Shown here in pieces: positions 13,267 to 48,244 of a stretch of 64,000 bases of DNA. The notes under the pieces are model-generated. The model ran no database searches. It was not told where the DNA came from and saw nothing but the letters and a program-made list of their open reading frames with translations. This stretch comes from Prochlorococcus marinus str. AS9601 (lineage in GTDB: Bacteria > Cyanobacteriota > Cyanobacteriia > PCC-6307 > Cyanobiaceae). Numbering within the stretch: position 1 is the first letter of the stretch; the number at the start of each line of letters is the position of its first letter. The translations under genes and the position numbers were made by a program. Where the stretch lies: assembly GCF_000015645.1 (NCBI RefSeq), contig NC_008816.1, positions 620,001 through 684,000 of the forward strand, read 5' to 3'.

Positions 13267-13340
13267 AATCTAAATAAAATTTATAATAACAAGAACGTTT
13301 CGAAAAGGCGTTTATATTATTCGGTTCTTTTTATTTGAAC

Positions 13341-13426
13341 GGAGGGGGTGGGATTCGAACCCACGGTGCCCTTGCAGACACGCTAGTTTTCAAGACTAGA
13401 GCCTTAAACCACTCGACCACCCCTCC
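13341..13426 (-). tRNA. tRNA-Ser (anticodon UGA)
   Basis: 86 bases. On the minus strand it begins GGAGGGGTGG and ends CCACCCCCTCC, forming the acceptor stem. The anticodon stem-loop is CTAGT-CTTGAAA-ACTAG with anticodon TGA, followed by a long class-II variable arm and the T arm GTGGGTTCGAATCCCAC. The CCA end is not encoded. The long variable arm and anticodon agree on serine. Confidence 0.97.
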
Positions 13427-13620
13427 AGAGGCTATTCAGTTTTGTTGAACTTCAAAACTATAACATAAGAAATTAGTCATAGTCTATAAATTCAAAGATT
13501 AAAAATTTATTTCAAGAAACTTGTCTGAAAGAGGAATTTTATTTAAAAATGACGGGTTAAGTCGTTATAACAGTCAATTATTGGTCACATTTAGTCCAAA
13601 AATTTAGGCCACAAAAAAAA

Positions 13621-14006: not shown

Positions 14007-14138
14007 TTTTTAGCTCCGGTTTCGCTTAAGTCCCCGTTCCATGGCTTAAGTCGATTTGCGGCTTGCTATACGCAAGTTGAACGTTTTGGTAGCGGTTGCT
14101 ACAAATTTATAATAACATCCATTAAAATTATTTGTCTA
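14007..14138 (-). promoter_or_regulatory. Promoter and structured ~100-base leader of the DUF4278 gene
   Basis: On the minus strand a TAGACA -35 (plus 14133-14138) and TATTAT -10 (plus 14109-14114), 18 bases apart, would start RNA near 14102. The leader, clearly richer in G+C than its surroundings, holds hairpin GTAGC-AACC-GCTAC (14089-14102), hairpin CTTGC-N5-GCAAG (14062-14076), and a direct repeat of GACTTAAGC at 14024-14032 and 14044-14052. Suggests post-transcriptional control or an sRNA; not matched to a known riboswitch. Confidence 0.5.
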
Positions 14139-22491: not shown

Positions 22492-23265
22492 ATGGAAGAC
22501 TTAACAAGATTAATTATTTCCCATGAAAGAATTGAAAATATTAAGAACAATAATTTAGAACTTTCTAAAGAAGAGGCTCATTATTTAAATAAAGTAATGA
22601 GGATAAAAAATGGTAAAAAAATATTTATAGCTAACGGAGAGGGTTCATTATGGAAAGCTACAAAAGTTAAAAATGATTGCTTAGAAATAATTAAATCAAA
22701 AAAACCTTACTTAATTCAAGAACAAGAAATTCACTTATTAGGAATAGCTGTTGTTATACCAAAAAGTGGTTTTGAGGATATTTTAAAAATGTGTACTGAA
22801 ATAGGAATTGATTACATACAGCCATTATTTTCAGAAAGACAGGTAAACAAAAATTTAAATTTTTCTAGAAAACTTTTGAGATGGAATTTAATTATTAATG
22901 AAGCTGTTGAGCAAAGTGAGAGATTATGGAAACCATCTATTTTAAATGGAATGGATATTATTGAATGGCTAAAAAGTAGAGATAATCAAGAAAGACTTTC
23001 AATTTCTATAACTAGAGAAGAAACACTATATGACTTAAATCAATGGTTAAGAAAACAACAAGAATTTGGAAATAAAAAAGGAGGTATTTTTTGGAATGTA
23101 ATTGGTCCTGAAGGAGGTTGGTCCGATAAAGAAATTGATTTTTTTAAAAAAAATAATATTACCTTTGTTAAGCTTTCCGATACTATCTTGAGAACTTCAA
23201 CGGCTAGTATTAATGCATCATCAATTCTAAATCAGTGGAGAATTGATTTAAAATTAAAGAATTAG
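22492..23265 (+). CDS. rsmE: 16S rRNA (uracil-1498-N3)-methyltransferase
   Basis: 257 residues of the SPOUT class. The N-terminal PUA-like domain includes EAHYLNKVMRIKNGKKIFIANGEG. The SPOUT knot signatures are clear: VIGPEGGWSDKEIDFF (~203-218) and LSDTILRTSTASINASSIL near the C-terminus. The catalytic region around EAVEQSERLWKP is also present. Confidence 0.95.
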   Translation: MEDLTRLIISHERIENIKNNNLELSKEEAHYLNKVMRIKNGKKIFIANGEGSLWKATKVKNDCLEIIKSKKPYLIQEQEIHLLGIAVVIPKSGFEDILKMCTEIGIDYIQPLFSERQVNKNLNFSRKLLRWNLIINEAVEQSERLWKPSILNGMDIIEWLKSRDNQERLSISITREETLYDLNQWLRKQQEFGNKKGGIFWNVIGPEGGWSDKEIDFFKKNNITFVKLSDTILRTSTASINASSILNQWRIDLKLKN

Positions 23266-38661: not shown

Positions 38662-38679
38662 AAAAATAAGTTAGAGTTA

Positions 38680-38868
38680 GATTACTGGATCTTTGGTTAA
38701 GTTCTTCTTTATGTGCTCTGATCTGACTCTCTTTCGACATGAGGAGACTGTCGTGATGCGGTAGTAAACCGATCTTGTAATCGGAAACGAAAGCCCACTT
38801 TGAATCCTCTTCTGGCATTTCCAGGTCGATGCAGCAGAGAACTGACGGGGATCCGGTGTTACCTATCA
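38680..38868 (+). ncRNA. ssaA: 6S RNA (RNA polymerase regulator)
   Basis: No protein gene fits here, but the G+C is well above the surroundings. ACTGGATC at 38684-38691 pairs with GATCCGGT at 38850-38857, closing a ~180-base structure, as expected for 6S RNA with a terminal stem and internal bubble. Position directly downstream of purK matches the described cyanobacterial 6S RNA locus (ssaA), and the size matches Prochlorococcus 6S RNA. The ends are approximate. It would bind RNA polymerase holoenzyme and modulate transcription with growth and light. Confidence 0.82.
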
Positions 38869-45071: not shown

Positions 45072-45246
45072 ACATTAAATTTTGATGATAAAAATATCTT
45101 TGTTTTCTTTTTATAGAATCTTTTAAATTTCATAATCCATCATAGCCTTAAAAAATCTAATAAGGAATTTTATAAATTTTTTCTTGTTCTAGTTCGTTTT
45201 CTTTTATATTTGGATTTAGATTAATTTTTTATTTTTTAGTTTAGAG

Positions 45247-45912
45247 ATGTCGACTTATCTAATTACAGGATCAAATAGGGGTATTGGATTAGAACTATGT
45301 AGACAAATTCATAAGAGGGGAGATAATGTAATTGCAACGTGTAGGAAAGCTTCAAAAGAACTTAGAGATTTAGGAGTGAGAATTGAAGAGAATATAGAAA
45401 TTTCTTCTGATGAGTCGATAACAAATTTGTGTAAAAAACTATCCGGAGTTAATTTAGATTGCTTTATTCATAATGCAGGAATTTATGAATTTAATTCTTT
45501 CGAAAACTTAGATAAAAAAAGTATTTTGCGGCAATTTGAAGTCAATGCATTGAGCCCAATATGTATGACTCAATCACTTAAACATTTTTTAAAAAGATCT
45601 TCTAAAGTTGCTTTTATCACGAGTAGAATGGGATCTATTGAAGATAATACATCAGGAAGTTCTTATGGTTACAGAATGTCTAAGGTTGCCTTGTCCATGG
45701 CAGCAAAATCACTTTCCATAGATTTATCAAGGGAAGATATTTATGTAGCTATTTTGCATCCTGGGTTAGTGAGTACAAGAATGACTGGCTTTACAAGAAA
45801 TGGAATAAGTCCTGAAGAATCAGCAAATGGCCTTTTAAAACGTATTGATTCTTTAAATAAAAATAACTCGGGTACTTTTTGGCATGCTAACGGAGAAGTT
45901 TTGCCTTGGTAA
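45247..45912 (+). CDS. Short-chain dehydrogenase/reductase
   Basis: 221 residues. The cofactor motif is LITGSNRGIGLELC (TGxxxGIG, ~5-18), NNAG is represented by FIHNAGIYEF, and the catalytic Ser, Tyr and Lys are TSRMGSIED, YGYRMSK. Probably NADP-dependent (GSNRG). Substrate unknown. One of only two genes in the island encoding more than 200 residues. Confidence 0.88.
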   Translation: MSTYLITGSNRGIGLELCRQIHKRGDNVIATCRKASKELRDLGVRIEENIEISSDESITNLCKKLSGVNLDCFIHNAGIYEFNSFENLDKKSILRQFEVNALSPICMTQSLKHFLKRSSKVAFITSRMGSIEDNTSGSSYGYRMSKVALSMAAKSLSIDLSREDIYVAILHPGLVSTRMTGFTRNGISPEESANGLLKRIDSLNKNNSGTFWHANGEVLPW

Positions 45913-45999
45913 TATAAATATATTTATATTGAAGAGATTTATATCTTTAATTTGTTAAAAAATTTTTAAATTTTTAACGAATTTCTTTCCTTGTTTAAT

Positions 46000-46224
46000 T
46001 CTTTTGGTTATCTTTAGAAAAATATTAGTAAAGGAGGTGATTCATTGTCGTATCTACCGAAAAATGCGGTTATCAAAGGGGCCGTGAATTCAGTATCTTC
46101 ATCACATTCATCGGTCTCTTTTTCTTTGATTAAGAAAAAAGGTTTTATAATCAACAGATTTATATAAATCAGTTACTTAATAATTAAAAGCTCTGCCTCT
46201 CATGAAGTTGCAGGGCTTTTTTTA
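46000..46224 (+). ncRNA. Candidate short transcript with extreme Shine-Dalgarno and own terminator
   Basis: The 340 bases between the SDR gene and the next gene are not empty. AAAGGAGGTGAT at 46030-46041 matches 12 bases of the complement of the 16S rRNA 3' end. ATT 46044 or TTG 46045 are placed well for it, giving ORFs of 28 (VVSTEKCGYQRGREFSIF...) or 40 codons (SYLPKNAVIKGAV...). A terminator follows at 46189-46223. It could be a small mRNA, an attenuator or a regulatory RNA; start and strand use are inferred. Confidence 0.45.
46189..46223 (+). terminator. Intrinsic terminator of the short transcript
   Basis: AGCTCTGC (46189-46196) pairs with GCAGGGCT (46210-46217) around a 13-base loop, followed by a run of T. 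It faces the minus-strand microprotein operon ending at 46253, so it may act in both directions. Confidence 0.8.
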
Positions 46225-46252
46225 TGAATTTAAATAATCTTTAAAATTTAGG

Positions 46253-46354
46253 CTATCTTTTTTGGCCGAAGTAAATTAAAGCTAAAAAAGATAAAGTGCT
46301 TACCAAAGCGATTAAGTACCACCCAGTTGAGGAGTTGCTAGTTACTTCGTTCAT
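46253..46354 (-). CDS. 33-residue membrane microprotein (fourth in operon)
   Basis: MNEVTSNSSTGWYLIALVST then LSFLALIYFGQKR: a hydrophilic Ser-rich start, one span and a basic end. ATG 46354 directly abuts the stop of the 29-residue gene. Confidence 0.6.
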   Translation of the reverse strand: MNEVTSNSSTGWYLIALVSTLSFLALIYFGQKR

Positions 46355-46444
46355 TTATTTTGATTTATCGGAGGAATTGATTATTTGAGTGAAAATCACA
46401 ATGGATATCATTAAAAAAACTAAAAGGATGTAAGTTACGTTCAT
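46355..46444 (-). CDS. 29-residue membrane microprotein (third in operon)
   Basis: MNVTYILLVFLMISIVIFTQ then IINSSDKSK: one span with a polar tail. ATG 46444 immediately follows the stop of the 84-residue gene; its own stop abuts the next ATG. Such packing is hard to explain unless both are genes. Confidence 0.6.
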   Translation of the reverse strand: MNVTYILLVFLMISIVIFTQIINSSDKSK

Positions 46445-46699
46445 TTATAGAAAAATGCTAATTATTAAAAAGATTATTCCTAGAACTACAGTAACAACTG
46501 CTCCATCTACTAATAAGTCTTTCCATGTATAACTTTTAAGCATCCTTGTTTTATCTTCTTCACTCATAAGGTTCTTTAACCACGTCCAATCTAAAAGCTG
46601 TGTCAAGGCAACACCAAAAATTAAATGACCAAACAAAATACCAATTAGATCAATTCTAGAAATATCTTTAGTGAGACTAGTAATAATAAAAAAGTCCAC
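46445..46699 (-). CDS. 84-residue two-span membrane protein (second in operon)
   Basis: GTG 46699 overlaps the preceding stop by one base (TAGTG). Spans at ~18-36 (LIGILFGHLIFGVALTQLL) and ~66-84 (GAVVTVVLGIIFLIISIFL), with a charged loop MSEEDKTRMLKSYTWKDL. Unknown family. Confidence 0.65.
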   Translation of the reverse strand: MDFFIITSLTKDISRIDLIGILFGHLIFGVALTQLLDWTWLKNLMSEEDKTRMLKSYTWKDLLVDGAVVTVVLGIIFLIISIFL

Positions 46700-46926
46700 T
46701 AGCTTTTTTCTTTATTAGATAAGGCTCCACCTTCTTCTTTGTATTTTTCCCAAGCTTCACTTATTTTCGCTTTAGAGAAATTTTGTTTTCCCTCAGTGAA
46801 TTTATTTTTGAGGTTATTTAAACTATTAGTAAGTTCTTTTTTTGTTGGTTCATCAAGAAAGTTTGATGTTAATTTCCATAAATACCAGCTACTAGCTAGA
46901 AGAAGAATTAATCCCAGTAATTGCAT
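46699..46926 (-). CDS. 75-residue anchored helical protein (first in operon)
   Basis: Span at the N-terminus (LLGLILLLASSWYLWKL) then a long amphipathic helix (EPTKKELTNSLNNLKNKFTE...) ending GGALSNKEKS. Heads a four-gene unit with no gaps. Confidence 0.65.
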   Translation of the reverse strand: MQLLGLILLLASSWYLWKLTSNFLDEPTKKELTNSLNNLKNKFTEGKQNFSKAKISEAWEKYKEEGGALSNKEKS

Positions 46927-47018
46927 ATTAGTTTTTTCCCATACTACAACTTTTCAAATGGTTTCGATAAATTAATTTATTTAATACCTGTAAAAATTTT
47001 TTTTGACCTAAATAAAAA

Positions 47019-47174
47019 TTAAAACTTTAACCAGTGGAAAAATATTCTATCAAGTAGCCATATAGTTAGACCCCCTTCCAGGAAAGCCAACCAATACATC
47101 CCATAATCAGAAAATCCCATTTGCTCTTTTACTGTTTTAATTAATTTTTTGTGAGCTTGAATGAGATCTTTCAT
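47019..47174 (-). CDS. 51-residue membrane microprotein
   Basis: MKDLIQAHKKLIKTVKEQMG, then a Trp/aromatic span MYWLAFLEGGLTIWLLDRIF. ATG 47174, 15 bases after the zinc-finger gene's stop on the same strand. Strongly patterned residues suggest a real conserved gene; family not known. Confidence 0.6.
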   Translation of the reverse strand: MKDLIQAHKKLIKTVKEQMGFSDYGMYWLAFLEGGLTIWLLDRIFFHWLKF

Positions 47175-47188
47175 GAAGAACAAAATTT

Positions 47189-47440
47189 TTAAACCTGCTG
47201 ATTTTCTTTTATTAAGAATCCCTTACCGTAACAAGATAAACAGGTTTTAGTTTCATCTAATGTAATTCTTAGAAAACCTGCTCCATTACATCTAAAGCAA
47301 TTTACTTTAGAAGTTGAGTAAAGTTTTGACTTAATTTTAGCAGCACGGTTTAAGTAAGAAACAGTTTCTTTACGACCGTTAGCTTGAGCAGCTTTATTTA
47401 AAAGCTTTTTATAACTGACTTTTAGTTCTTGGGTATTCAT
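47189..47440 (-). CDS. Small DnaJ-type zinc-finger protein
   Basis: 83 residues. The C-terminal half has CFRCNGAGFL and CLSCYGKGFL, two CxxCxGxG repeats as in the DnaJ zinc domain and related cyanobacterial factors (BSD2-like). The N-terminal half is basic and helical. No J domain. May bind partly folded proteins or act in assembly. ATG 47440. Confidence 0.78.
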   Translation of the reverse strand: MNTQELKVSYKKLLNKAAQANGRKETVSYLNRAAKIKSKLYSTSKVNCFRCNGAGFLRITLDETKTCLSCYGKGFLIKENQQV

Positions 47441-47859: not shown

Positions 47860-47920
47860 ATGAATTGTGCTTAAGATTATTTAAAAGACAGTTGAGATCA
47901 TAGTGATCCCAAAAAAAATT

Positions 47921-48032
47921 TGTGGATAGTTTTTTCTTAAAAGAAGATAATATTTTATTTTGCACATAGAAATTCAAATTTAATCAACATATTGTGGAAA
48001 AACCTGTTGAAAAACGCTTAAAAAGTGGATAA
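47921..48032. other. Cluster of DnaA-box-like 9-mers
   Basis: TGTGGATAG (47921), TGTGGAAAA (47993), TGTTGAAAA (48005) and AGTGGATAA (48024), all in one orientation within 112 bases of a gene-free spacer (47860-48145). TGTGGAAAA is the reverse complement of the cyanobacterial DnaA box TTTTCCACA. Could be a DnaA titration or regulatory site; chance in AT-rich DNA is not excluded. Confidence 0.4.
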
Positions 48033-48145
48033 CTCTTCGGGAGCATTATCAAAACAAGCTTTTCTGGAAAAAATTTTAAGTATTAATACTTCATCAAAAA
48101 AAATAAAATATAGTTTAAAAAGTAACAAAATCTCTTGTTATAACT

Positions 48146-48244
48146 ATGGGATCATTACTTTTTAAAAAAGATAAATTTTCTATACCAGAAGCTCATGTTG
48201 ATAAAAAATTCAAAAAGTTTTTTCTGCATGATGTATCAAATTGA
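48146..48244 (+). CDS. Possible 32-residue protein
   Basis: MGSLLFKKDKFSIPEAHVDK then KFKKFFLHDVSN: basic, soluble. ATG 48146. Only ORF shape supports it. Confidence 0.35.
   Translation: MGSLLFKKDKFSIPEAHVDKKFKKFFLHDVSN

Follow-up and report, generated by a model that had tools for sequence, protein, structure and literature searches.

Analysis of a 64,000-nucleotide stretch of the Prochlorococcus marinus str. AS9601 genome (referred to as the window) points to a small gene on its forward strand that, judged by comparative sequence evidence, is almost certainly a real coding gene. The account we favour, which we regard as probable though far from secure, is that of a stand-alone Prochlorococcus small-protein gene in which a very strong Shine-Dalgarno (SD) sequence is combined with a fixed weak UUG start, with controlled initiation and a peptide acting in trans. 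Prochlorococcus is among the most abundant photosynthetic organisms and, if translated, the product would be a small protein kept across many of its clades and absent from the family libraries searched. The locus would also be a natural example, kept by evolution, that bears on the debated question of what purpose an SD sequence far above laboratory optima serves.

Predicted extended Shine-Dalgarno sequence

Reading of the region 45200-47200 places AAAGGAGGTGATTCATTG at 46030-46047, and AAAGGAGGTGAT at 46030-46041 (forward strand) is a single exact copy both in the window and in the 1,669,886-base genome. Sites with up to two mismatches numbered 8 in the window against 7.9 expected from shuffles; allowing up to one mismatch gave 27 in the genome, where the reversed control pattern gave 14. 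On these counts the exact site alone stands out. The original prediction took these 12 bases for a perfect match to the anti-SD. The 16S gene of this genome ends in ...GGATCACCTCCTAAC, with a 3' end of GGCTGGATCACCTCCTAAC as taken from the gene sequence, so the first two A's of AAAGGAGGTGAT are unpaired and perfect pairing is limited to the 10 nt of AGGAGGTGAT; the 12-mer is thus present and its perfect pairing is two bases shorter than claimed.

Together with one G-U pair and CA, AGGAGGTGAT gives a predicted 13-bp duplex of -21.8 kcal/mol directly before the TTG. The extended SD so defined, AGGAGGTGATTCA at 46032..46044 (forward strand), comprises 10 perfect pairs, one G-U pair and two more pairs with the genome's own 16S tail, and its predicted pairing reaches well past the GGAGG core and adjoins the start codon, which is what characterizes an extended SD. 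A scan of both strands of the window in 2-base steps found no 24-mer at or below -21 other than frames of the 46032..46044 site, which is therefore the strongest anti-SD site in the window; the next best site, near 23110, reached -20.4. In a comparison set of 64 ORFs (at least 100 aa each), median pairing was -5.6 and the best -19.2; these figures are generous, as each ORF was represented by whichever of several candidate starts paired best.

Exact copies of AGGAGGTGATYCA occur at three genome sites (the 16S gene, the small-gene locus and the interior of one long ORF), while up to two mismatches yield 100 places in the genome versus 93 for the reversed control; genome-wide, it is only at the small-gene locus that the exact 13-mer stands before an ORF start. 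Calculated against the AS9601 16S tail, pairing is -21.8 in 15/15 loci of the genus to which the window belongs (window genus), and among the 43 other loci it is -23.3 to -26.6 in 42 and -16.6 in one.

For Escherichia coli, an optimum of SD:aSD pairing of about -7.5 to -9.5 kcal/mol is reported in PMC2176067, which also cites a study where a 6-nt SD beat SDs of 8 and 10 nt, and translation in three bacteria is described as highest at intermediate SD pairing (PMC5303271). The value of -21.8 was computed with a different program and on a longer tail, and is not strictly comparable with these published optima. Given these optima, the very high-level peptide synthesis that had been proposed for the locus is doubtful.

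Architecture of the locus

Upstream of the SD, a possible -10 element, TATCTT, is located at 46009..46014 (forward strand); it is absent from the sigma-70 scan output, and GTTATcTT is largely kept in the 15 window-genus loci. According to the ORF list, TTG at 46045 is the first start of an ORF of 40 aa (MSYLPKNAVIKGAVNSVSSSHSSVSFSLIKKKGFIINRFI) that spans 46045..46167 on the forward strand, 46167 being the last base of its TAA stop codon, and relatives carry third-position-biased substitutions in the same frame. A frozen 26-nt block, GGAGGTGATTCATTGTCGTATCTACC, extends over 46033..46058 (forward strand) and is single-copy wherever it was found with up to three mismatches. The codons of a conserved C-terminal motif, GFIINRFI, occupy 46141..46164 of the same strand, and the motif also exists on other short peptides without a strong SD at their start.

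The ORF is followed at 46186..46223 (forward strand) by a predicted intrinsic terminator, a hairpin folding at -15.8 kcal/mol and then a T run, whose stem shows compensatory changes in relatives. A simple scanner returned no terminator in 45800-46500 and missed this hairpin; the terminator originally proposed to follow the ORF is nevertheless upheld by the fold and by the stem variation. The gene on the upstream side (45247-45912, forward strand) resembles a short-chain dehydrogenase by eye and by BLAST cluster, and the gene-sized ORFs just downstream of the small ORF lie on the opposite strand in the ORF list. Directly downstream, at 46253-46926 of the reverse strand, there is also a run of short ORFs (33, 84 and 75 aa) with hydrophobic stretches discernible by eye.

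Coding evidence for the TTG frame

Across the collected loci the start codon is TTG in 58/58 and AUG in 0/58, although the search pattern used, GGAGGTGATYCATTGTCGNATCTACC with up to three mismatches, itself contains TTG and introduces a mild bias into the locus collection. Translation gives a same-frame peptide that ends in INRFI followed by a stop in 53 of the 58 loci, of which 15 (window genus) encode 40 aa and 38 encode 30-35 aa (33 aa in 35 of these). Only the N-terminus is kept in L039, L053, L085 and L086, and a fifth locus, L040, is doubtful, having matched the pattern with 3 mismatches. The coding, structure and recoding statistics exclude all five, and alignment A5 also excludes L095, whose peptide is that of L088.

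The peptides mostly begin with MS(Y/H)LP and keep INRFI at the C-terminus. Where the ORF has 33 aa (35 loci), pairs of loci differ on average by 0.034, 0.046 and 0.221 at the first, second and third codon positions over codons 23-33, and by 0.434, 0.327 and 0.420 over codons 13-22. The 15 distinct window-genus ORFs yield 0, 0 and 0.171 over codons 31-40, and 0.066, 0.066 and 0.065 over codons 6-30, without third-position excess. These codon-position differences reveal clear protein-level selection at the C-terminus, whereas none is visible in the central part of the ORF. By sequence comparison, then, third-position bias is confined to one frame, and start, stop and frame are kept across clades. 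The AlphaFold prediction of the peptide was uninformative (mean pLDDT 55.6).

Two starts, ATT and TTG, had been envisaged as giving two small proteins, and of these only the TTG frame is conserved. The ATT frame closes after 5 to 47 codons with no pattern, the letters ATT being found in 58/58 loci because of their overlap with ATTG, and ATT was rejected as a second start since its frame is not conserved. The wider proposal of a translated small RNA with an exceptional SD and a terminator is thus well supported by sequence conservation, apart from the two-protein part.

Distribution among relatives

The block GGAGGTGATYCATTGTCGYATCTACC is present at one copy per genome in 58 of the 251 family genomes. 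With the pattern GGAGGTGATYCATTGTCGNATCTACC it was located in 36 of 168 high-quality genomes and 15 of 59 genera, and in 15 of the 16 window-genus genomes, which answers the question whether close relatives retain the match; the remaining one, G179, is 99% complete and is without the block. None of the family genomes of at least 2.1 Mb in the 251-genome set contains it. A 301-base query found matches in 34 of 151 genomes, near full-length in 5 other window-genus genomes and short elsewhere. Profile search returned 38 full-length matches, all on loci already collected. A scan of one genome per species (84,980 species), queried with the form from outside the window genus, gave 34 relatives among 323 peptide-pattern stretches, all titled Prochlorococcus, and the listed relatives are 58-79% identical to that query. 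The upstream dehydrogenase adjoins 15/15 window-genus loci and the neighbours differ in other clades, for which reason the small gene seems independent and trans-acting.

Short peptides sharing one half

Broader searches reached 89/251 genomes with profile A2 at an E cutoff of 1 (many of these matches being at chance level), 62/251 with the C-terminal motif pattern, and 55/251 with profile A3 at E up to 0.05, including one marginal match (0.046) in a 2.4-Mb genome. Short peptides with the C-terminus only were of type B in L127-L130 and of a longer type C in L131 and L138; L127, L128, L129, L130, L131 and L138 carry the C-terminus GF(I/L)INR(F/L)I and belong to genomes without the full main form. 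Types B and C both begin at ATG, and pairing upstream of that codon is weak (-1.5 to -5.6).

At L131 (genome G043), GGAGGTGA followed by ATG and a 16-codon ORF (MSLLMDLSLGKIVLDQ) is situated 62 nt before the type C start, with GGAGG 73 nt upstream of that start. This upstream ORF recalls the N-terminal half and may be its remnant or partner. In genome G026 a single contig carries both an N-only copy (L053) and a C-only copy (L129), as though the two halves could exist as separate genes, a reading that comes from this one genome. In L133 (G055), a 99-aa open frame ends in EFIINRFI and by eye is like the gene directly upstream of the L128 type B peptide (L128:835-1341), which suggests a gene fusion.

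Nucleotide-level constraint and predicted RNA structure

Among the 35 loci of the 33-aa form, TCG encodes Ser2 in 33/33, CTA encodes Leu4 in 33/33 and ATC encodes Ile6 in 31/32, and codons 5, 7 and 8 vary synonymously while codons 2 and 4 stay fixed. Codon 10 ends in A in 35/35 though it encodes S, P, A or L, and is part of the predicted start stem. The ORF ends in TTT ATA TAG in 35/35 loci; outside this set, L083 has TTT ATT TAG and L082 ends in TAA. This conservation indicates that, between the SD and about +14, the start region is additionally constrained at the nucleotide level.

RNAalifold applied to 37 transcripts, all from outside the window genus, yields a predicted stem, CCAUUG/CAAUGG, in which the start codon takes part. 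Each of the six positions of this stem has standard pairs in 36 or 37 of the 37 sequences; the changes seen are one-sided and of G-U type only, with no two-sided change. A hairpin predicted over the INR codons has one strongly compensatory pair (20 G-C, 13 A-U, 3 G-U), and the terminator predicted in relatives has compensatory pairs as well. Named pairs of the start stem and INR hairpin are standard in 97.9% of cases; shuffling gives 96.6%, and sliding the partners no more than 44%.

Start pairing is only modestly above that of synonymous recodings, at 0.92 versus 0.62 in the 38 loci (a median of 9.5/60 recodings reach the native value) and 0.46 versus 0.34 in the 15 window-genus loci (a median of 8/60); in the window genus the start stem is absent and pairing is weaker. 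Outside the window genus, a hairpin over the start is probable on this modelling.

Proposed mechanism and its rivals

On the favoured account, an mRNA of ~200 nt, delimited by the putative promoter and the terminator, would encode a peptide of 40 aa in AS9601 and mostly 33 aa in other clades. The start-proximal strong SD would capture the 30S subunit and compensate for the invariant weak UUG and, outside the window genus, for the start-covering hairpin, which would be peeled open as the 16S tail pairs with the final bases of the SD (CCA). The outcome would be a controlled initiation rate, not simply maximal output, and the peptide would probably act in trans, docking on a partner or membrane via its C-terminal motif.

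That the start region is a regulated device of strong SD and weak start is put forward tentatively, with somewhat less than an even chance, plain compensation being the main rival. Such a device would resemble infC-type control, which uses an AUU start, in that a suboptimal start that never varies may serve as a control point; the codon here is UUG. An unlikely reading, though worth stating, has the start region acting as a sensor of ribosome capacity, built from an SD duplex of at least 13 bp, a fixed UUG and a start hairpin, whereby initiation would depend steeply on free 30S, initiation factors or temperature. Were this sensor true, a Prochlorococcus-specific modular micro-protein would report or tune the translational capacity of a minimal phototroph that has few regulators.

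Under plain compensation the locus would be an ordinary small-protein gene whose long SD offsets a poor UUG, with initiation not specially regulated. Weaker starts tend to accompany stronger SDs (PMC5622118), and start-proximal extended SDs with frequent UUG and other non-AUG starts are described in Staphylococcus aureus, for example in aur, where SD pairing is likewise lengthened toward the start (PMC13009471); the S. aureus case involves two extra pairs seen by cryo-EM, unlike the 13 predicted pairs of one gene fixed across clades here. A duplex far beyond the neighbours (-21.8 versus a median of -5.6), a UUG that is never AUG in 58 loci and synonymous sites frozen right after the start all speak against it, and we rate plain compensation as a real but minority prospect.

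A rather improbable alternative makes the RNA the functional molecule: its frozen block would hold or sample free 30S, and the ORF would be secondary or the RNA dual-function. The 30S initiation footprint is about as long as the frozen block, the block is better conserved than the middle of the peptide, and the 3' hairpin has the compensatory pair noted above. Protein-level selection at the C-terminus runs counter to this idea, coding being the simpler account of a conserved peptide; titration of 30S would require a very abundant RNA, and pairing of the post-start stretch with the rest of 16S is not above shuffles (43, 49 and 68 of 300 shuffles reach it). The dual-function RNAs SgrS/SgrT and SR1/SR1P similarly combine a short RNA with a peptide of 39-43 aa (PMC5126843).

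A type I toxin-like or membrane-active peptide is slightly less probable again: the peptide is short, type B relatives appear amphipathic and basic by eye, and such a role is proposed for the Yfr6 and Yfr9 peptides in PMC2518516, but the locus is without a known partner and is single-copy in each genome. A leader peptide of a cis-regulated downstream gene is hardly credible, for although relatives have a short ORF and then two hairpins, one over the stop region, the next gene-sized ORFs here are on the other strand, no conserved co-directional downstream gene was found among the loci, and the unit's own terminator together with clade-specific neighbours argues that there is no cis leader.

Databases and known systems

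Pfam, NCBIfam and PHROGs gave no match for three main-form peptides, NCBIfam and Pfam none for three related peptides, and PDB sequences none. IMG/VR had no exact pattern match, and the 23 IMG/VR stretches that fit the peptide pattern included no relative; of 50,697 phage records 20 gave hits, all with E of about 1 or worse, and on these results a phage origin was rejected. A search of titles and abstracts found none on the small-gene locus, and the MED4 gene number gave no paper. Table S2 of PMC2518516 is described as listing 113 new MED4 ORFs and may already include the small ORF.

Two small RNAs invite comparison. Yfr6 is alike in being a short Prochlorococcus transcript with a conserved 33-aa ORF (PMC1242208, PMC2518516), but the MED4 Yfr6 region is described there as framed by trnS and nrdJ, and the window's tRNA-Ser and Glutamine-II riboswitch match are near 13.3-14.1 kb; identity with Yfr6 was rejected by position. 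Yfr103 is a very abundant small RNA of marine picocyanobacteria, reported from marine Synechococcus and named low-light Prochlorococcus (PMC5069720), whereas the block is absent from family genomes of at least 2.1 Mb; identity with Yfr103 is disfavoured, by distribution only.

Rfam, run on the window at gathering scores, gave nothing at the small-gene locus. Elsewhere in the window, a Glutamine-II riboswitch match (14025-14086, reverse strand) near tRNA-Ser (13339-13427) probably marks the counterpart of the MED4 Yfr6 locus. Further Rfam matches are 6S RNA at 38679-38863 (forward strand) and Yfr17 at 47884-48148 (forward strand), the latter ~1.7 kb from the small gene.
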